Part shown: in pieces, positions 12,918-23,509 of the stretch
How the letters are laid out: each line of letters begins with the position of its first letter
Position numbering within the stretch: the stretch's first letter is position 1
Origin: Neptunicoccus cionae
GTDB taxonomy: Bacteria; Pseudomonadota; Alphaproteobacteria; Rhodobacterales; Rhodobacteraceae
DNA: 64,000 bases
NCBI RefSeq assembly: GCF_002860325.1
Contig: NZ_PKOJ01000002.1
Coordinates: 372,001 to 436,000 of the forward strand
Direction of reading: 5' to 3'
The notes under the pieces: generated by a model
What the model was told of the DNA's origin: nothing
The model's input: only the letters and a program-made list of their open reading frames with translations
Database searches by the model: none
Translations under genes and position numbers: made by a program

Positions 12918-14567
12918 TCAGGCTGCCATCTGCTCCAGCTTGGGAAGGTAGACATAAAATGTCGTCCCTTTCCCCACCTCGCTTTTCAGCCCCAGTGTCC
13001 CGCCGTGATGCTGCACAATCTTCTTCGTAATAGCGAGCCCGAGCCCCGTACCCACCCGTTTTTTACCATCAGCCGGTTTTGCCTGCGAGAAACTCTCGAA
13101 CAGGCGGGTCTGGTCTTCGGGTTTGATTCCCGGCCCTTCGTCGGCCACAGAGATACACCAGTTCTTTACGTTATCGTGCAGGGCAATCTCCACAGTACTG
13201 CCTTCGGGCGAGAATTTCACCGCGTTCGACATCAGGTTCGACATCACCTGAATCATCCGGTCATGGTCGCAATTGGCTAGGGCCTCGTCCGTGCTTGGCA
13301 CGTAGTTGAATTTGACGCCGTGCTGGTCGCCATACCCTTTGTTGACCTCAATGGATTCTTCCAACAACCCGTTCAGGCTATTTGCCTGACGGTTGTATTC
13401 CATTTTCCCGGAATGGATTTTTTCCATATCGAGAATGTCGTTCACAATAAACATCAGCCGGTCACAATTGCGCAGGGCTATCGAGACTAGCGATTTCGAA
13501 CTGTCGTTCAAGGTCGTTGAAGCCTGTGCTTCAAGCAGTTGCAGTGATCCTTTGATAGAAGTAATCGGCGTGCGCAATTCGTGGCTGACCACAGAAACCG
13601 AAGACATCTTGGCCTTATCAATCGCCATCCGATCCGTGATGTCCCGCGCGACGGAAACAAACACGGTTGTCCCGTCAAGCTGTTCCAAAAGGCTGGTGTG
13701 AACCTCTACATACCCCTTGGCCTGCTTCACCGCGATCACCACCGAGCTCTTGCTACCGTCCATCAAAGGTTGGGTATGGGCGCGGAAGGCCATTTCGTTA
13801 AACCCTGCCTCTGTATCCAGCACCCGCTTTGTCAGGCTTTCTTCAGCCGTCCATTCACACCGCTCCAAAGCCCGTTCGTTCATATATACGATGTCCAGCG
13901 TTTCGGAATCGAAGATGTAAACTTCGTCATGCAGTTTACTTAGGATTGCGTTGGTACGTTTTGTTTCTTCCGCCTTGCGCAAATCAGTGATGTCGTGCCG
14001 GATGGAAACATTTCCCACATGCACGCCCTTATCATCAAATTGCGGCACGATGGTTGCGCGGTAATAACGGATCTCGCCGGATTTCGTCCGGGCAGGATGG
14101 CGCCCTTCCCAACTGCGCCCTTCTTTCGTGGCCTTCAGAATGTCTTCAAACACCGATTCATCGCCAAGATTGGCATGAATCAAATCCATCTTTTTCCCGA
14201 TGGCCTCGTATTTGGTGTAGCCGAATTCTTTCAGGAACTTGTCGTTCACGGACAGAATGGTCGCATTCTCGTCCGTAACGGTAACGACGCTGTGCATATC
14301 CATAGCGGACTGCACAAAAGAGATTTCACGGTCGCGGTCCATAATCTCGCGACGCTGCGCGTTGATGTGCCACTGATAGGCAACCACCAGACCAAAGAGC
14401 AATACAACAACAACCACGCCAAGCGCGGTGGCCATATCGTTGAGCGAGACCATTTTGGACAGCAACCCGACGCGGTAAAGAACGAAAGCTATACCGCAGA
14501 CGAGTACCGCCACGGCAACTACAAAATTTCCGGCTTTCGCCTTTTTGTTGTAATCTGAAACGCTCAT
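12918..14567 (-). CDS. PAS-domain sensor histidine kinase
   Basis: 549-residue membrane histidine kinase. Two transmembrane helices (about residues 13-35 and 47-65) with a short loop, then two PAS/PAC domains (about 85-200 and 205-315), then HisKA with the phosphorylatable His329 in VSHELRTPITSIKGS, and a complete HATPase domain: N box NLMSNAVKFSP, G1 VADEGPGIKPED, G2 VGTGLGLAITKKI. A GGAG ribosome binding site precedes ATG 14567. No receiver is attached; the stand-alone receiver gene at 16972 is the nearest candidate partner. The signal is unknown; the small extracellular loop suggests sensing in the membrane or through cytoplasmic PAS domains. Confidence 0.94.
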   Translation of the reverse strand: MSVSDYNKKAKAGNFVVAVAVLVCGIAFVLYRVGLLSKMVSLNDMATALGVVVVVLLFGLVVAYQWHINAQRREIMDRDREISFVQSAMDMHSVVTVTDENATILSVNDKFLKEFGYTKYEAIGKKMDLIHANLGDESVFEDILKATKEGRSWEGRHPARTKSGEIRYYRATIVPQFDDKGVHVGNVSIRHDITDLRKAEETKRTNAILSKLHDEVYIFDSETLDIVYMNERALERCEWTAEESLTKRVLDTEAGFNEMAFRAHTQPLMDGSKSSVVIAVKQAKGYVEVHTSLLEQLDGTTVFVSVARDITDRMAIDKAKMSSVSVVSHELRTPITSIKGSLQLLEAQASTTLNDSSKSLVSIALRNCDRLMFIVNDILDMEKIHSGKMEYNRQANSLNGLLEESIEVNKGYGDQHGVKFNYVPSTDEALANCDHDRMIQVMSNLMSNAVKFSPEGSTVEIALHDNVKNWCISVADEGPGIKPEDQTRLFESFSQAKPADGKKRVGTGLGLAITKKIVQHHGGTLGLKSEVGKGTTFYVYLPKLEQMAA

Positions 14568-14722
14568 TCGGCTCCATCCTCCTGCGTGCTCCCCTCCCCC
14601 CAGAAGAGAGCGCGTGTCCTGTTAACAAAAGAAGCTACGTCGTGATATTGTCATAAATAGGGAAACAATCGGAATCTCGTGCAAAACATTTAAGATTGTT
14701 GCTCCTGTTACACACTAAACCT

Positions 14723-16783
14723 TCAAGCGACCTTTCGTTCTTCTATAGGTGCAGGGTTTTGCACTTCAGTACGGGACAAAACCAATGTGACCAGCTTGCC
14801 AATATCCCTGTCAATTTCGACTGTGATGCGCGCACCCATGCTTTCGGGGTTCGGCAAATCGGAATCCGGGTCATCCCCTTTGATAAAGTTCACCAGATCC
14901 GACTGGAAACTTTCAGCGTTTGACTGGGCTCCATCCATCAAAGTCAGGACCTGGGCACCGGTATCACGCACTTTGATGATCACCTCGTCTCCCTCGGGAT
15001 GGACAGAAATCTTTACAGACCCTCTCTCTGTGGTCCGGATCGCATTTTCGATCATCCGGCTGAGAGAGCGATCCACATAGACCGGATCAGCGTGAATATT
15101 GGTCTCTTCAATGACAACGGAGAATTCCAGACCTTTGCCGGAGGCTTCATTCCGGAACCGTTCTGCAATCGGGCCAACCAACTGTCCGGCTCTGAAGTCC
15201 TTGCCCTGACCGGTACATACGTCTTTGCTCTTCTGGGTGAACTCCAGAAGTTTGTTAATCAGGGTATGCAGATGCTCTCCAGCGGCGGAAATACGTTGGG
15301 CATGAGATTGCACTTCTTCGGTGACAGCACTGACATGCTGCAATTCGTCTGCCAGCGCCTGCTCTCGCAACGCAACAACAGATTTAAGATGCGTCGGATT
15401 TTCTAAAAATGCGTTATATCCCAAAAGGATACTCAGAGGCGTTTTCAGTTCGTGGCTCACTGCATCCATAAAGCGGGTTTTGGCAATTTCAGAAACCTCG
15501 GCCGCTTCTTTGGCCTTGATAATTTCTGTAACGTCCATGGTGAATACGATTAAACAGCCGTCATCGAGCCGTTTGGTATTCACTTTCAGCCAACGTCCTC
15601 CGGGATAGCGTGCATGTTGCACGGCAGTCGGCTGTTGGCGCATCCGGACCCGTTCCTGAATCCATGCTTCGTCCTTAACCGCGTCGTCCGTAAAGCGATT
15701 TTCTGAAATCGCGATTCGAATCAACTCTTCAAAAGTGGGTTTCTTTGCCAGCAGTGCAGCGCTCAGACTATTGTCGCTCATGTAACGAGAATTGCAGAGG
15801 ATCAGTCGATCCTGCGGATCGTAAAGGGCAAACCCCTGATCGCAGGCTTCTAAGGCGTTACGCATCCTGACTTCGACAACCTTGCGTCCGCTGCGCAATT
15901 TGGCAATCAGGTAGAAGACAGCAACGATACTGCCAAAGGCTATACCGAAATAGAGAACGTTCCGAAAAAACTTCTGGGACACCAGTGGCCAGCCTGCCGG
16001 TGGCTGTGCCGCAATCTGCCACATCCCTGACGGTACAGGAACATCAACGACAACGGCGCCTTTGTCGAAAATCGCCTGATCTCCGTCAATCGGATCGTAA
16101 GTCACGCGGTTACTGCCATCATCGTTCACACGGCGAATGGCCATAATATGGGGAACGGAAGCATCGACCCTGCCTAAGTGTAACGTTTGAACAAATTTGT
16201 CTTTGTCGAGAACGATTGAAATAATACCCCAATTACTCTGACTTGCATCGGCAGCTTGGGTCATCTCAATCGAGTTTCTCAGGATGAAACCTGTCCCACC
16301 CTGGATAAGCTCCAATGGTCCGGCAAGAACAGGTTCATCGGACATAAACGCCTGTAGGGCCGCAGCGAACTGGGCACCATTTTCGCGGTAATTCAACCCG
16401 ATAACAGAGGCGTTCTTCTCCACCGGATGGACATATTCAACAACCAGATCGGGCGCCACAGCGATATTGATGACACTTGTATCGTGGTCCGTAAGCTTTT
16501 CAGCAATCATAGATAGACGCGCCTGACCGAAAGTTTCGGGTTCTATTTCAATCGCAACGCCAATCGCCTGTGCCAAAAGAACAGCCTTGCCAAACTGGGA
16601 TTCGATCTCGCGGCGCATATCATCTGCCACGTCGTTCATTTCAGAACGCAATTCTGCTTTTTCAGTTTGCAGATTATTAACTTCGTTGGCATATATGATG
16701 CCACCGAAACCGATCAAAAGAAATGCCGCCTGCAGAAAACTTGTTTTCTTAACTGCACGGACACTATTTTTCATACCCATCAT
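14723..16783 (-). CDS. CHASE-domain histidine kinase with eroded ATP-binding domain
   Basis: 686-residue membrane sensor. An N-terminal helix (residues about 15-32) is followed by a periplasmic CHASE domain (about 60-235), a second helix near residue 270, a PAS domain, HisKA with His444 in DAVSHELKTPLSILLGYNAF, and a C-terminal HATPase-like region. The N box is recognisable (DRSLSRMIENAIRT) and a G1 remnant reads VRDTGAQVL, but the G1 Gly pattern is altered and no G2 GxGLGL box exists: NPESMGARITVEID stands in its place. Autokinase activity is therefore doubtful; it might act as phosphatase, as substrate of another kinase or by dimerisation. It is divergent from the receiver gene at 16972. 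Confidence 0.9.
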   Translation of the reverse strand: MMGMKNSVRAVKKTSFLQAAFLLIGFGGIIYANEVNNLQTEKAELRSEMNDVADDMRREIESQFGKAVLLAQAIGVAIEIEPETFGQARLSMIAEKLTDHDTSVINIAVAPDLVVEYVHPVEKNASVIGLNYRENGAQFAAALQAFMSDEPVLAGPLELIQGGTGFILRNSIEMTQAADASQSNWGIISIVLDKDKFVQTLHLGRVDASVPHIMAIRRVNDDGSNRVTYDPIDGDQAIFDKGAVVVDVPVPSGMWQIAAQPPAGWPLVSQKFFRNVLYFGIAFGSIVAVFYLIAKLRSGRKVVEVRMRNALEACDQGFALYDPQDRLILCNSRYMSDNSLSAALLAKKPTFEELIRIAISENRFTDDAVKDEAWIQERVRMRQQPTAVQHARYPGGRWLKVNTKRLDDGCLIVFTMDVTEIIKAKEAAEVSEIAKTRFMDAVSHELKTPLSILLGYNAFLENPTHLKSVVALREQALADELQHVSAVTEEVQSHAQRISAAGEHLHTLINKLLEFTQKSKDVCTGQGKDFRAGQLVGPIAERFRNEASGKGLEFSVVIEETNIHADPVYVDRSLSRMIENAIRTTERGSVKISVHPEGDEVIIKVRDTGAQVLTLMDGAQSNAESFQSDLVNFIKGDDPDSDLPNPESMGARITVEIDRDIGKLVTLVLSRTEVQNPAPIEERKVA

Positions 16784-16971
16784 GAAAACATGCGCCTATT
16801 TTTTTTCTTTAAGTTTTACGCACATTCATTTTGCACGCTAAGGTTATTTTCCCGAGACACCTCAATCCACCTGAAATTAACATAATTGGTTGCAATTTTG
16901 CTACACGCACAACTTCTGCTTGCATTTCCAACTGAATCGCTGCATCAAAATCTTTTAGACGGATCGCAGCA

Positions 16972-17364
16972 ATGACTGAATTGAAACGTGTTTTACACGT
17001 CGAAGATGACGAAGATATTCAGGAAATCACCAAGATGGCCCTAGAGGTCGTCGGTGGGATGGAGCTTGATCAGTACCTCGAAGGCAGCGAAGCCCTTGAG
17101 AATATCCGCAAATTCAAACCGGATCTGATCCTTTTGGATCAGATGATGCCGAATATGACGGGCGATGAAGTTCTGGCGCACATCCGCAAGATACCGGAGT
17201 TCGCGAATACCCCTGCCGTATTCATGACAGCACAATCCTCCGAGGCCTCTAGCCGGTTGCTGGAAACGACCGATGCTTTGGAAATCATCTCAAAGCCGTT
17301 CAACCCCATGACGCTGGCCACGCAGTTGAGCGAAATCTTCAAAGCGGCAAGTCAGAACGCTTAA
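16972..17364 (+). CDS. single-domain response regulator (CheY-like)
   Basis: 130-residue stand-alone receiver domain. The acidic pocket is HVEDDED, the phosphoacceptor is Asp56 in LILLDQMMPNMTG, followed by the switch Thr (FMTAQ) and Lys (ISKPFNP). No output domain. It is divergently transcribed from the CHASE kinase gene over 188 bp and lies close to a second kinase, so it probably relays phosphate from one or both. As in other alphaproteobacterial single-domain regulators, the target may be another kinase, a phosphotransferase or a cyclase. The downstream target is unknown. Confidence 0.93.
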   Translation: MTELKRVLHVEDDEDIQEITKMALEVVGGMELDQYLEGSEALENIRKFKPDLILLDQMMPNMTGDEVLAHIRKIPEFANTPAVFMTAQSSEASSRLLETTDALEIISKPFNPMTLATQLSEIFKAASQNA

Positions 17365-18300: not shown

Positions 18301-19323
18301 TTACTGAACGTGTACCATACCGCGACCGCGACCCTTGGAGGTGTAGAGAGCCTGATCAGCGGTCGCCAGAATATCTCCGGCTGTCCGGCGCGAACCGGCA
18401 GGAACAACAGTTGCGCCAACACTCGCACCGACGCGGCAGGTCACGCCTTCGAAGCGGACAGGTTGTTTCAGGTCGTCTATCACCCTCCCAGCAATGGATC
18501 GGACTGTTTCCACAGTTTCACACTCGGTCATGATGATCACAAATTCATCCCCCCCCAGTCGCGCGACAAGATCGGTTGCCCGCATACGCTTTCGCAACTT
18601 GTCCGCCGTAGCCTGAAGCACCATATCCCCTGCCGCGTGGCCGTACGTGTCATTCACAGCTTTAAAATGGTCCAAATCGATTTGCATCAGTACAAACCCC
18701 TTGCCCTTCTTGCGACGGAGCAGGCGCGTCATATGACTTTCCAGTGCACGGCGGTTCGCAAGACCTGTCAGGGCATCTGTAGAAGCTTCTTCTTCTGCAA
18801 GCACACGTGCGCCCTGCAATTTCTGACTTTGGGCTTTATGCTGCTGGTAGACGAACGACTGAACTTCCATCATGTAAATCATATCCAGGGTTGGGTCTGC
18901 TGGTGAGAAATCCTTGTTCGTAAGGTTGCAGCGACTGACGATATCAAGCACGCCAGCCCCGAGCGAGAGATCGATCAGCAGCGCACCCTGCCCAAGACCG
19001 ACAGCAACCGCTTTCAATTTTGCGCGACCAAGATCGGGAACTGAAAGCGTCAGCCGTTCTCCTTCTGCATCCAGAAGACCGGACACATCGCAAATTCCAG
19101 CCGGACGACGGACTTTGAACAAGTCGAAAACGTCAGCGCCGATCACCTGCCTGTTCGAAAAAAGTTTCAGAAGGCTTGGTCCCGCGTGCTGAACCGTTCC
19201 GTTCGGATCTGAAACCATATGAAACGGCAGGACCGTATCAAACACGGACTGAAGACCTGAATAACTCTGCAGGCCGCTAGTTGCCGTTTCTTTCAAAGGC
19301 TGCATTAAGGGCGCCAAACTCAT
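18301..19323 (-). CDS. HNOBA-type diguanylate cyclase (GGDEF), H-NOX partner
   Basis: 340-residue cytoplasmic protein. Residues about 25-130 form a sensor region resembling the haem-NO-binding-associated (HNOBA) domain (LPFHMVSDPNGTVQHAGPSLLKLF). A coiled-coil linker (QQHKAQSQKLQGARVLAEEEA) leads into a complete GGDEF domain (STDALTGLANRRALESH, LDHFKAVNDTYGH, active site RLGGDEF). An inhibitory I-site RATD precedes it, so product feedback by c-di-GMP is likely. No EAL domain. Its ATG overlaps the TGA of the H-NOX gene (ATGA), so the two are co-translated; H-NOX-bound NO would regulate c-di-GMP synthesis. Confidence 0.92.
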   Translation of the reverse strand: MSLAPLMQPLKETATSGLQSYSGLQSVFDTVLPFHMVSDPNGTVQHAGPSLLKLFSNRQVIGADVFDLFKVRRPAGICDVSGLLDAEGERLTLSVPDLGRAKLKAVAVGLGQGALLIDLSLGAGVLDIVSRCNLTNKDFSPADPTLDMIYMMEVQSFVYQQHKAQSQKLQGARVLAEEEASTDALTGLANRRALESHMTRLLRRKKGKGFVLMQIDLDHFKAVNDTYGHAAGDMVLQATADKLRKRMRATDLVARLGGDEFVIIMTECETVETVRSIAGRVIDDLKQPVRFEGVTCRVGASVGATVVPAGSRRTAGDILATADQALYTSKGRGRGMVHVQ

Positions 19324-19913
19324 ATGCTTATCGCAGTCGGGTCGTGGACGGCATCCGGCACCGGCAGTTGCATCACCGATATTTCGAACCGGTCACGATC
19401 CCATTCGTTCAAGGTTTCCGGTACGTGATCGATCAGAATCAACGCACCGTAATCGTCTGCCATCCCCCGAAGCAGCCCCAAAAAGACAGCCCCGAACCCC
19501 AGTTTTTCAAATCGATAATGAACTGTGAACCGGCCCGCGCTATGGCTTTCCAGTTCGAACCGCGGCACATCCAGATCCGGCAGGGCAATTTTCGCGCGGT
19601 CGTGTACATCTTCAAGGGACTGTAGGAATTCGACATAACTTTCCCCGCCTAATCGCAACAGTTTGCGCACCGGTTCCAGCCGTTCCTCGGACACAACGAA
19701 TGTGCCAAAATCTTCAAGCAGATCCGCACGTTCGCGCCCCAACACACGGGTCAGAGCATTAACAAGTCTTTCCGTGAGTGCATCGTCATAGTTGAGCATC
19801 GTTTCGAAACCAAACCCCGACAGGCCCGCCAAAGAACAGGTTTCTTCCCAGATATCCGGTCCGAAAATTTCGCAAATATAGACCTGCAAGCCGCAGTTAA
19901 TTGTGCCATGCAT
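19320..19913 (-). CDS. H-NOX haem nitric-oxide/oxygen-binding protein
   Basis: 197-residue H-NOX (HNOB) sensor. The typical start MHGTINCGLQVYICEIFG is present, and His104 in LEDVHDRAK is the expected proximal haem ligand; Pro117 matches the conserved Pro that packs on the haem. The usual YxSxR haem-propionate motif reads YRFEK (Tyr133, Phe135, Lys137), so Ser and Arg are replaced. There is no Tyr pattern that I can read as an O2-stabilising residue, so NO is the likely ligand. It is the first gene of a two-gene operon with the diguanylate cyclase. Confidence 0.92.
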   Translation of the reverse strand: MHGTINCGLQVYICEIFGPDIWEETCSLAGLSGFGFETMLNYDDALTERLVNALTRVLGRERADLLEDFGTFVVSEERLEPVRKLLRLGGESYVEFLQSLEDVHDRAKIALPDLDVPRFELESHSAGRFTVHYRFEKLGFGAVFLGLLRGMADDYGALILIDHVPETLNEWDRDRFEISVMQLPVPDAVHDPTAISI

Positions 19914-20021: not shown

Positions 20022-21566
20022 CTAGAAATCAGTCGGCGCCCCGCCTTCTTCTTTTCTGCGGGCAACAAAAGCAGCCAGTTCAACCTTGATTGCATCATCC
20101 AATGGCGGCGGTGTGTACTCTTTCAAAATGTCTTTATAGATCCGGTGTGCGCGCGCGACCGTCCACTCCTGCCCTGCGAGCGACCAAGCCTCGTAATTAC
20201 GCCAGTCGCTGGCAATCGGGCTGTAAAACGCGGTTTCATAACGTTCCTGCGTGTGCTGCACCCCGAAGTAATGGCCTTGCGGCCCGACTTCTGCGATTGC
20301 ATCAAGCGCGATCTCCGCGGGGCCGGTATCTGTAATGACCGGCTCCATATACCGCTGGATCATCTGAAGCACTTCGCAATCCATAATGAACTTCTCGGGG
20401 CTGGCGATCAGCCCCCCTTCCAGCCAGCCAGCGGCGTGATAGACAAAATTGGAACCGGATTGCACCGCCGCCCAGAGACTATTGGACGTCTCCCACATTG
20501 CCTGCCCGTCCGGTACATTCGCCGTACAAACCCCGCTGGAGCGGATCGGCAAGCCGTAAAACCGCCCCATCTGCCCCGTCATCTGTGTAGCCCGCATGTA
20601 TTCAGGTGTACCAAAGGCAGGCGCGCCGGATTTCATATCTACATTGGAAGTAAACGTCCCTATGGCCACCGGCGTACCCGGATTGATAATCTGCAACAAA
20701 ACGATCGCCGCCAGTCCTTCGGCAATGCTGAGCGCAACGGCACCAGACATGGTTACAGGGGCCATTGCGCCTGCCAGTGTAAAAGGTGTTACCACCACCG
20801 GCTGGCCGCGCCGCGCCATGCGCATCGCCCCGTCAAGCATCGGAAAATCATGCACCAGCGGAGAAACCGAATTGATGTTCGTATACATTCGCGGTGCAGC
20901 ATCAAATTCCGCATGGCTCAACCCGCCTGCGATACGGACCATCTCCATCACATCTTCTACCCGCTCCCTTCCAAGGGAATAGGCATGCACCACTTTATCC
21001 GTCAGCAGCAGCTTTTCCTGAAGGCAATCAAGATGCCGCACAGAGGCGTGAATATCCACCGGCTCTACCGGATAGCCGCCGGCGACATGAATGCAATTGA
21101 AATAGCCGGTGAGCTTCATCAGGTTGCGAAAGCTTTGAAAATCGCCGGTCTTCTTGCCGGTTTCCAGATCCCAATAATTGGGCGGAGACGAGACATTGAC
21201 AAAGGTCAGACAGTCGCCGCCGATTTCGACTTTTCGGTCCGGGTTGCGCGGGGTGATTGTAAAGGACGCCGGTGCCTGTGCCACCCGTGCCATCACAAAA
21301 TCCTCTTCCATAAAGACGGTTTGCCCTTCCACCCTGCACCCTGCCCGCGCCAGAATGTCAAGCGCTTCGGGATTCAGCATCTTTATCCCGATACGAGACA
21401 GAATATGCATGGCCCCGTTGTGGATTGCGTCCACGCCCGCCGCATCCAGGGGTTCTGTGGGGCGGTCGCGGTTGCGCACGATCCGCCATGGCATCTGTTC
21501 TATGGCACGCGTGGACGTCCTGCGCGTGTTCCCCGCGCGTCCTCCGCTTCTGATCCTTGCAGCCAT
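20022..21566 (-). CDS. MttB-family (trimethylamine/glycine betaine methyltransferase-like) protein
   Basis: 515-residue TIM-barrel methyltransferase of the MttB superfamily, which passes a methyl group from a quaternary or tertiary amine to a corrinoid protein. ATG 21566 (MAARIRSGGRAGN) is preferred over 21614 because GGAGA lies 5-6 bp upstream. The frame has no internal TAG, so this is a non-pyrrolysine member, the group that includes glycine betaine methyltransferase (MtgB). Family stretches: GVDAIHNGAMHILSRIGI, HAAGWLEGGLIASPEKFIMD and GPQGHYFGVQHTQERYE. No corrinoid protein gene lies nearby. It is divergent from a GlxA/GbdR-type regulator. The substrate is unproven; glycine betaine, carnitine or another methylammonium compound is likely. 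Confidence 0.9.
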   Translation of the reverse strand: MAARIRSGGRAGNTRRTSTRAIEQMPWRIVRNRDRPTEPLDAAGVDAIHNGAMHILSRIGIKMLNPEALDILARAGCRVEGQTVFMEEDFVMARVAQAPASFTITPRNPDRKVEIGGDCLTFVNVSSPPNYWDLETGKKTGDFQSFRNLMKLTGYFNCIHVAGGYPVEPVDIHASVRHLDCLQEKLLLTDKVVHAYSLGRERVEDVMEMVRIAGGLSHAEFDAAPRMYTNINSVSPLVHDFPMLDGAMRMARRGQPVVVTPFTLAGAMAPVTMSGAVALSIAEGLAAIVLLQIINPGTPVAIGTFTSNVDMKSGAPAFGTPEYMRATQMTGQMGRFYGLPIRSSGVCTANVPDGQAMWETSNSLWAAVQSGSNFVYHAAGWLEGGLIASPEKFIMDCEVLQMIQRYMEPVITDTGPAEIALDAIAEVGPQGHYFGVQHTQERYETAFYSPIASDWRNYEAWSLAGQEWTVARAHRIYKDILKEYTPPPLDDAIKVELAAFVARRKEEGGAPTDF

Positions 21567-21731
21567 GACGGTCTCCAGTGCTGATAAGCCCGATCGAGGG
21601 GTGTTCAGCTTCACACTGGCAGCGGGTTGTCGTTTTCTGCGTCAGGTTTACGACATTTGCTGTCGAATCCGGCGAGACTTCTGCCGGAATCCGGCATTAG
21701 CTGGAGGAAAAGCATCCCATAGAGCCTGCAC

Positions 21732-22730: not shown

Positions 22731-23420
22731 TTACCGCAAGACTGCTGCGATGCCCGAAATGTCCTGCAGAACCACATCCGCCAGATGTGCAATATCATCG
22801 CTCTCTGCCGGACCGGTCAACACACCAATGGTCATGGCAACGTTGGCCGCGCGTCCCGCCCCCAGATCATGGGTGGAATCCCCGACCATCGCAACTTGCT
22901 GCATCGACAGGCCCGTCGCGACACCAAAGGCCAGCAAGGGACCGGCGGCAGGTTTCACCCCGTGGCCGCTGTCAAATCCGGCGACAAAATCAAACAGTTC
23001 CGCAATCCCTTCCTGCTGCAATTGCATATAGGCACCCTCTTCGTAATCGTTGGTCACCAGCCCGAGCTTGATACCCTGAGCCCGCAGACCGGTGAACAAA
23101 GCCTTGAGGTCGCAGACGGGCACAGAGGGCAAACTGCCCAGATGTTTGACCGCCACCGCATCCACATCTTGCGGGCTGAAATCCGGCAGCAGGCTGGCCC
23201 AGACGCCGATGATCTCTCCCGCCGAAGCGTTAACGATCAGGCTGCCAGGCAGGAAGCTGTTGTCGCGCAGGTCAAACCCGACCGCATCGGCCAGTTCTTT
23301 CTTCTTGACCGGATCACCGGCAGACAGGTCTTCCAGAACGTTGTCACACCAAATCGTCCAGGTCGCGCCGTAGTGAAACAGCGTGCCGTCCTTGTCAAAA
23401 ACCAATCCCTTGATCGTCAT
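22731..23420 (-). CDS. HAD-superfamily phosphatase (phosphoglycolate phosphatase-like)
   Basis: 229 residues from ATG 23420 (MTIKGLVFDKDGTLFHY). The HAD motif I DKDGT has the nucleophile Asp and acid/base Asp; motif II is LGLVTNDYE, motif III a Lys in KPAAGPL, and motif IV VGDSTHDLGAGRAANV. A four-helix cap lies between motifs I and II, placing it in subfamily IA with Gph-like phosphatases. Despite the family name it is not expected to be a dehalogenase. It is convergent with the GlxA-type gene (3-bp gap) and divergent from the MarR gene. Confidence 0.9.
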   Translation of the reverse strand: MTIKGLVFDKDGTLFHYGATWTIWCDNVLEDLSAGDPVKKKELADAVGFDLRDNSFLPGSLIVNASAGEIIGVWASLLPDFSPQDVDAVAVKHLGSLPSVPVCDLKALFTGLRAQGIKLGLVTNDYEEGAYMQLQQEGIAELFDFVAGFDSGHGVKPAAGPLLAFGVATGLSMQQVAMVGDSTHDLGAGRAANVAMTIGVLTGPAESDDIAHLADVVLQDISGIAAVLR

Positions 23421-23509
23421 AACCTGTTGTCCGTGTTGTCCATTCTTCCCCGCCAGCCCTAAAGGCTCTTTGCCCTGCATTCCAGCCACGAAATGTTTCG
23501 GATTGACTC

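Follow-up and report, generated by a model that had tools for sequence, protein, structure and literature searches.

An H-NOX protein with an altered YxSxR motif encoded beside a diguanylate cyclase in Neptunicoccus cionae

The gene pair and its surroundings

The window, by which we mean the whole stretch of 64,000 nucleotides that was analysed, carries an hnoX gene followed by the gene for a GGDEF cyclase (Table 1). The open reading frames and identities given for both in the initial annotation were confirmed by their coordinates and by the PF07700 and GGDEF profile matches, and its proposal of co-translation agrees with the ATGA in which the hnoX stop overlaps the cyclase start. No promoter or terminator signal at the pair scored above shuffled sequence. 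The possibility that hnoX is a pseudogene was considered and rejected, as the frame is open and dN/dS lies well under 1. The HNOBA-like N-terminus claimed for the cyclase was also recovered, the PF07701 match covering residues 26–75 and only positions 6–55 of the 216 in the profile, above cut-off; the profile was matched in 25 of 33 partner cyclases. In the structural model of the cyclase, a small alpha/beta domain and a long helix (residues 144–182) accompany the GGDEF domain. Both the GGDEF active site and the RxxD inhibitory site, the sequence marks of an active cyclase, are present in the window protein, as they are in all 214 partner cyclases found.

Table 1. Positions of the features discussed, in window coordinates unless a locus is named
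Feature	Position	Strand	Basis
HNOBA-GGDEF diguanylate cyclase (340 aa), H-NOX partner	18301..19323	-	PF00990 E 7.5e-44, PF07701 E 4.3e-8
GGDEF active-site motif, residues 257-261	18541..18555	-	sequence
RATD (RxxD inhibitory-site motif), residues 248-251	18571..18582	-	sequence
H-NOX protein (197 aa), GGDEF-linked, assigned to the 'Group 5' type	19320..19913	-	PF07700 E 3.1e-30
ATGA shared by hnoX stop and cyclase start	19320..19323	-	sequence
Altered YxSxR motif, YRFEK, at residues 133-137 (Tyr133 kept, Ser to Phe135, Arg to Lys137)	19503..19517	-	alignments
Codon of His104, retained at the position of the proximal haem ligand	19602..19604	-	aligned with Alr2278 H105
MTTB-family methyltransferase, directly upstream of hnoX, conserved neighbour	20022..21614	-	PF06253 E 2.3e-216
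HAD-like gene, farther upstream of hnoX	22731-23489	-	
Fused H-NOX-cyclase	L012:131-1714	-	single polypeptide
Fused H-NOX-cyclase	L015:1495-3102	+	single polypeptide

Of the 82 named or plasmid loci compared, 71 have an MTTB relative in their flanks and 47 a relative of the HAD-like protein; the MTTB gene lies immediately upstream on the same contig in 15 of the 23 genomes of the genus that have an altered-type hnoX. Near the pair, positions 12918-17364 encode PAS-HisKA and CHASE-PAS-HisKA histidine kinases on the reverse strand and, on the forward strand, a lone receiver-domain protein. The genome has two H-NOX genes. The product of the second, L001, has YLSER and a proximal His, and its gene is followed by that of a hybrid kinase, so the organism retains a canonical H-NOX alongside the eroded copy. 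No more than about 1.6 kb separates L001 (G000:C15:118591-122177) from an MTTB paralogue, and only three MTTB matches were found in the genome. A genome search gave no match for NirS and none above cut-off for NirK, which argues against self-made NO from nitrite via those routes.

The haem site of the window protein and its relatives

The window protein has the HNOB profile match, the fold and the proximal His of an H-NOX. Its AlphaFold2 model (mean pLDDT 90.5) adopts the H-NOX fold, with Nostoc H-NOX and sGC beta-1 as the best PDB matches (Z about 22; for 2o09_A, Z 22.4 and rmsd 2.3 over 179 aligned residues), and residues 1–165 align with Nostoc Alr2278 (phmmer, E 1.7e-21). Because this alignment pairs HYRFEKLG with HYQSTRAG/HYQSTRCG, and VHDRAK with LHARVG, the Ser to Phe and Arg to Lys changes are real. 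Alignment with a well-studied H-NOX, the check put forward in the initial annotation, thus sets YRFEK on YxSxR and bears out the reported absence of Ser and Arg and retention of His104; only the Tyr of the canonical motif remains. The possibility that a different segment represents an intact YxSxR was ruled out, since both the Alr2278 and the family alignments place the YRFEK strand there. The window H-NOX therefore has its fold, proximal His and Tyr in common with Alr2278 and sGC beta-1, but carries Phe and Lys in place of Ser and Arg.

We compared 240 distinct H-NOX proteins, a non-random draw in which sequences identical over the first 165 residues counted as one. They comprised genus matches to the family model or to the window protein, the best and weak matches from the order, a class-wide draw, and the 80 top-ranking named loci out of 562, with D. 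shibae not among the 80; locus L182, which had no profile match, and the genus match G031 were left out. Of 390 genomes sampled across the order, 319 have a relative of the window H-NOX, and the family model matched in 14 of 289 genomes of the class-wide draw, four of them from the window's family. YxSxR is present in 24 of the 240 and missing from 216, an altered subfamily in which not one sequence has the motif intact, so the substitution is not the unusual point that it had been taken to be. All 24 motif-bearing proteins have the proximal His; a downstream GGDEF relative was found for five of these and none for the other 19 in the stretch around the gene. By comparison, the proximal His is absent in 193 of the 216 altered members. 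Across all 216, this site holds Pro in 149, His in 23, Gln, Tyr and Ser in eight each, Ala in seven, Asn in four, Arg and Gly in three each, Asp in two and Glu in one. At the Tyr position of the motif (Alr2278 position 134), Cys occurs in 136 of the 216. Among 22 sequences from the window's genus, 12 have YxFxK, nine keep the proximal His and eight have Tyr at the proximal position; the nine His-keeping sequences all have Lys at the motif, and eight of them also have its Tyr.

The degree of erosion was scored across the 216 at eight pocket positions that the canonical sequences conserve (Alr2278 V52, F70, H105, P113, F120, Y134, S136 and R138). None of the eight is kept in 74 sequences and one in 89. 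The window H-NOX keeps six, the maximum found, a score shared only with its 96% identical relative L025, and it is among the least eroded of the altered subfamily. On average, members of the genus keep 3.4 (n=22) and sequences from elsewhere 0.84 (n=194). Since most relatives have lost more of the haem site, the window copy resembles an intermediate rather than an oddity. Four altered sequences outside the genus (L084, L090, L136 and L137) keep Ser and Arg without Tyr, which shows that the three residues were not lost in a single simple step; judged from these sequences, the order of residue loss does not form a simple ladder across the whole altered lineage. For a correlation between loss of His and loss of other pocket residues, only five supported pairs on independent branches were available, too few for testing.

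Tree placement, Group 5 and the partnership

In an H-NOX tree built with the motif columns omitted, a single branch (SH-aLRT 87) separated altered from canonical sequences, and support rose to 100/99 once kinase-type sequences were omitted. When L264, the P. denitrificans H-NOX with Pro as its proximal residue, was added, the split held at 82/82 with L264 on the altered side, so that the window H-NOX groups with it, apart from the kinase-linked and canonical proteins. Within the altered side the window's genus is basal, and all other altered sequences form one group (92/100), in a tree in which several deep branches are moderately supported. The large tree requires a minimum of 15 switches between His and another residue at the proximal site, for which parsimony cannot tell loss from regain.

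Group 5 is a large cluster built from the P. denitrificans H-NOX, and in the portions available to us of the paper describing it the proximal His is given as present in under 10% of members, Pro as present in most, and Cys as not conserved (Lee-Lopez and Yukl, 2022; PMC8738867). As judged from its branch in our tree, and not from the published similarity network, the window H-NOX is a Group 5 member. Like Group 5 as described there, it has a GGDEF neighbour, here with the ATGA overlap, as well as the MTTB and HAD neighbours that a figure legend names among the neighbour families. It departs from the majority state of the group in keeping the proximal His, together with the Tyr of YxSxR; because loss of the His is a majority but not a universal state, His104 is no bar to membership. 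We found no discussion of YxSxR in Group 5 in the available parts of open-licence papers, PMC8738867 included. The pair is a genuine, ordinary member of this known but poorly understood family.

A direct partnership between H-NOX and cyclase is well supported by these comparisons, since adjacency is conserved and fused forms occur in two relatives. Of the 216 altered H-NOX proteins, 212 have an adjacent GGDEF partner and two are fused to one, 214 in all, and for the other two none was found in the surrounding stretch; ATGA stands at the hnoX stop in 139 of the 212 adjacent pairs. The fused forms are HNOB-GGDEF polypeptides of 528 and 536 aa from the genus, and since they are sisters in the tree (97/91) they probably reflect a single fusion event. 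For hnoX, dN/dS against genus relatives was 0.05–0.17 in four of six comparisons, the other two not being estimable, with most dS values saturated; the closest comparison, with L025, gave 0.14, the one solid value. These ratios indicate that hnoX is under purifying selection.

Models for control of the cyclase

The reading that we favour, with modest confidence, is that the H-NOX is a subunit directly controlling an active partner cyclase, in which a haem/NO input is weakened yet plausible in the window protein. The pair would then be a two-gene c-di-GMP control unit of Rhodobacterales, in which the H-NOX may dock on the HNOBA-like and coiled-coil part of the cyclase and, once docked, change its activity. 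If the D. shibae and P. denitrificans systems are a guide, the change would be restraint. In the Group 5 lineage, YxSxR would have been lost, with repeated changes of the proximal His, while H-NOX and cyclase stayed under selection, with the window H-NOX as an early-branching, little-eroded member. With His104, Tyr133, Phe69 and Phe119 in place and Lys standing for Arg, haem might plausibly be held at lower affinity and an NO signal passed on. The NO control of the cyclase suggested in the initial annotation may accordingly apply to the window pair, whereas in most relatives a haem/NO input is probably absent. A point against this reading is that L013, at 68% identity to the window H-NOX, has Gln at the proximal site.

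Known systems offer partial parallels, cited here from the available parts of the sources. In D. shibae, also of the Rhodobacterales, hnoX lies beside a cyclase gene as in the window (Bedrunka 2018; via PMC7232146, PMC6473078 and PMC8846402), and NO-bound Hnox is cited as an inhibitor of Dgc1 (PMC7232146; PMC8846402); the likeness to the window lies in this gene arrangement. The separate H-NOX proteins of L. pneumophila (Hnox1/Lpg1057) and S. woodyi (H-NOX/DGC-PDE), listed as haem NO sensors, act on a c-di-GMP enzyme in the way proposed here (PMC8846402), but a functional EAL domain, absent from the window cyclase, is also part of the S. woodyi partner. On the same side of our tree as the window protein is the H-NOX of the P. 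denitrificans HnoX/DgcA pair. The H-NOX proteins of P. denitrificans and R. sphaeroides are described as lacking the axial His, and biofilm formation is partly deficient in an hnoX mutant of P. denitrificans, with overproduction in a dgcAB mutant (Kumar and Spiro, 2017; PMC5588039); a 2025 paper states that c-di-GMP could not be quantified in this organism (PMC12582929).

The alpha subunit of soluble guanylate cyclase is haem-less, and the window H-NOX may similarly be a haem-free pseudo-sensor, that is, a constitutive or differently triggered subunit of the cyclase. We regard this as possible but on balance improbable for the window protein. It would fit a subfamily in which 193 of 216 members are without the proximal His and none has YxSxR while the partner cyclases are nonetheless intact, and oxidation can elicit a response from the haem-free H-NOX of V. 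cholerae, according to the parts of PMC7108781 available. The P. denitrificans hnoX phenotype arises without an axial His, so the His kept in the window H-NOX need not imply haem use. Against this, the window protein retains the His and the Tyr as well as canonical Phe/Pro positions of the pocket, all of them lost from most other members.

It is doubtful that the pair is an ordinary NO sensor, with Tyr and Lys holding the propionates well enough for normal haem affinity and a normal NO response and the substitution thus being neutral. The consistent company of Lys, and nearly always Tyr, with the proximal His in the nine genus sequences would agree with this, as would, should its haem-site residues prove similar, the entry in Table 4 of PMC8846402 that gives D. 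shibae Hnox as a haem NO sensor which inhibits Dgc1. On the other hand, the Ser of YxSxR is invariant in 25 canonical sequences, themselves chosen for bearing the motif. A cysteine/zinc redox switch in place of haem, for which the Cys at the Tyr position in 136 relatives and the V. cholerae (PMC7108781) and Cc H-NOX (PMC12329717) precedents, as far as the available text goes, might speak, is very improbable, as family alignment A2 has no invariant Cys column, Group 5 is reported without a conserved Cys in the part of PMC8738867 cited above, and the window H-NOX has Tyr at that position.

Returning to the H-NOX as a subunit with weakened input, we tentatively suggest, as a possibility less likely than not, that the genus preserves steps from an NO-sensing H-NOX towards a haem-independent or differently ligated (for example Tyr-ligated) cyclase regulator, in which the propionate clamp changed first (YxFxK), the axial His was lost later and repeatedly, and control of the cyclase was kept all along. 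How Group 5 H-NOX proteins sense anything is a question that the available portions of Lee-Lopez and Yukl (PMC8738867) leave open, and the value of the window protein is as an intermediate state that makes this question testable. Close homologues in the genus, the two fusions among them, differ at the ligand site (His, Gln, Tyr, Asn or Ser), so a single assay could compare the haem dependence of near relatives. Among them, the little-eroded window H-NOX could reveal whether haem is still used.
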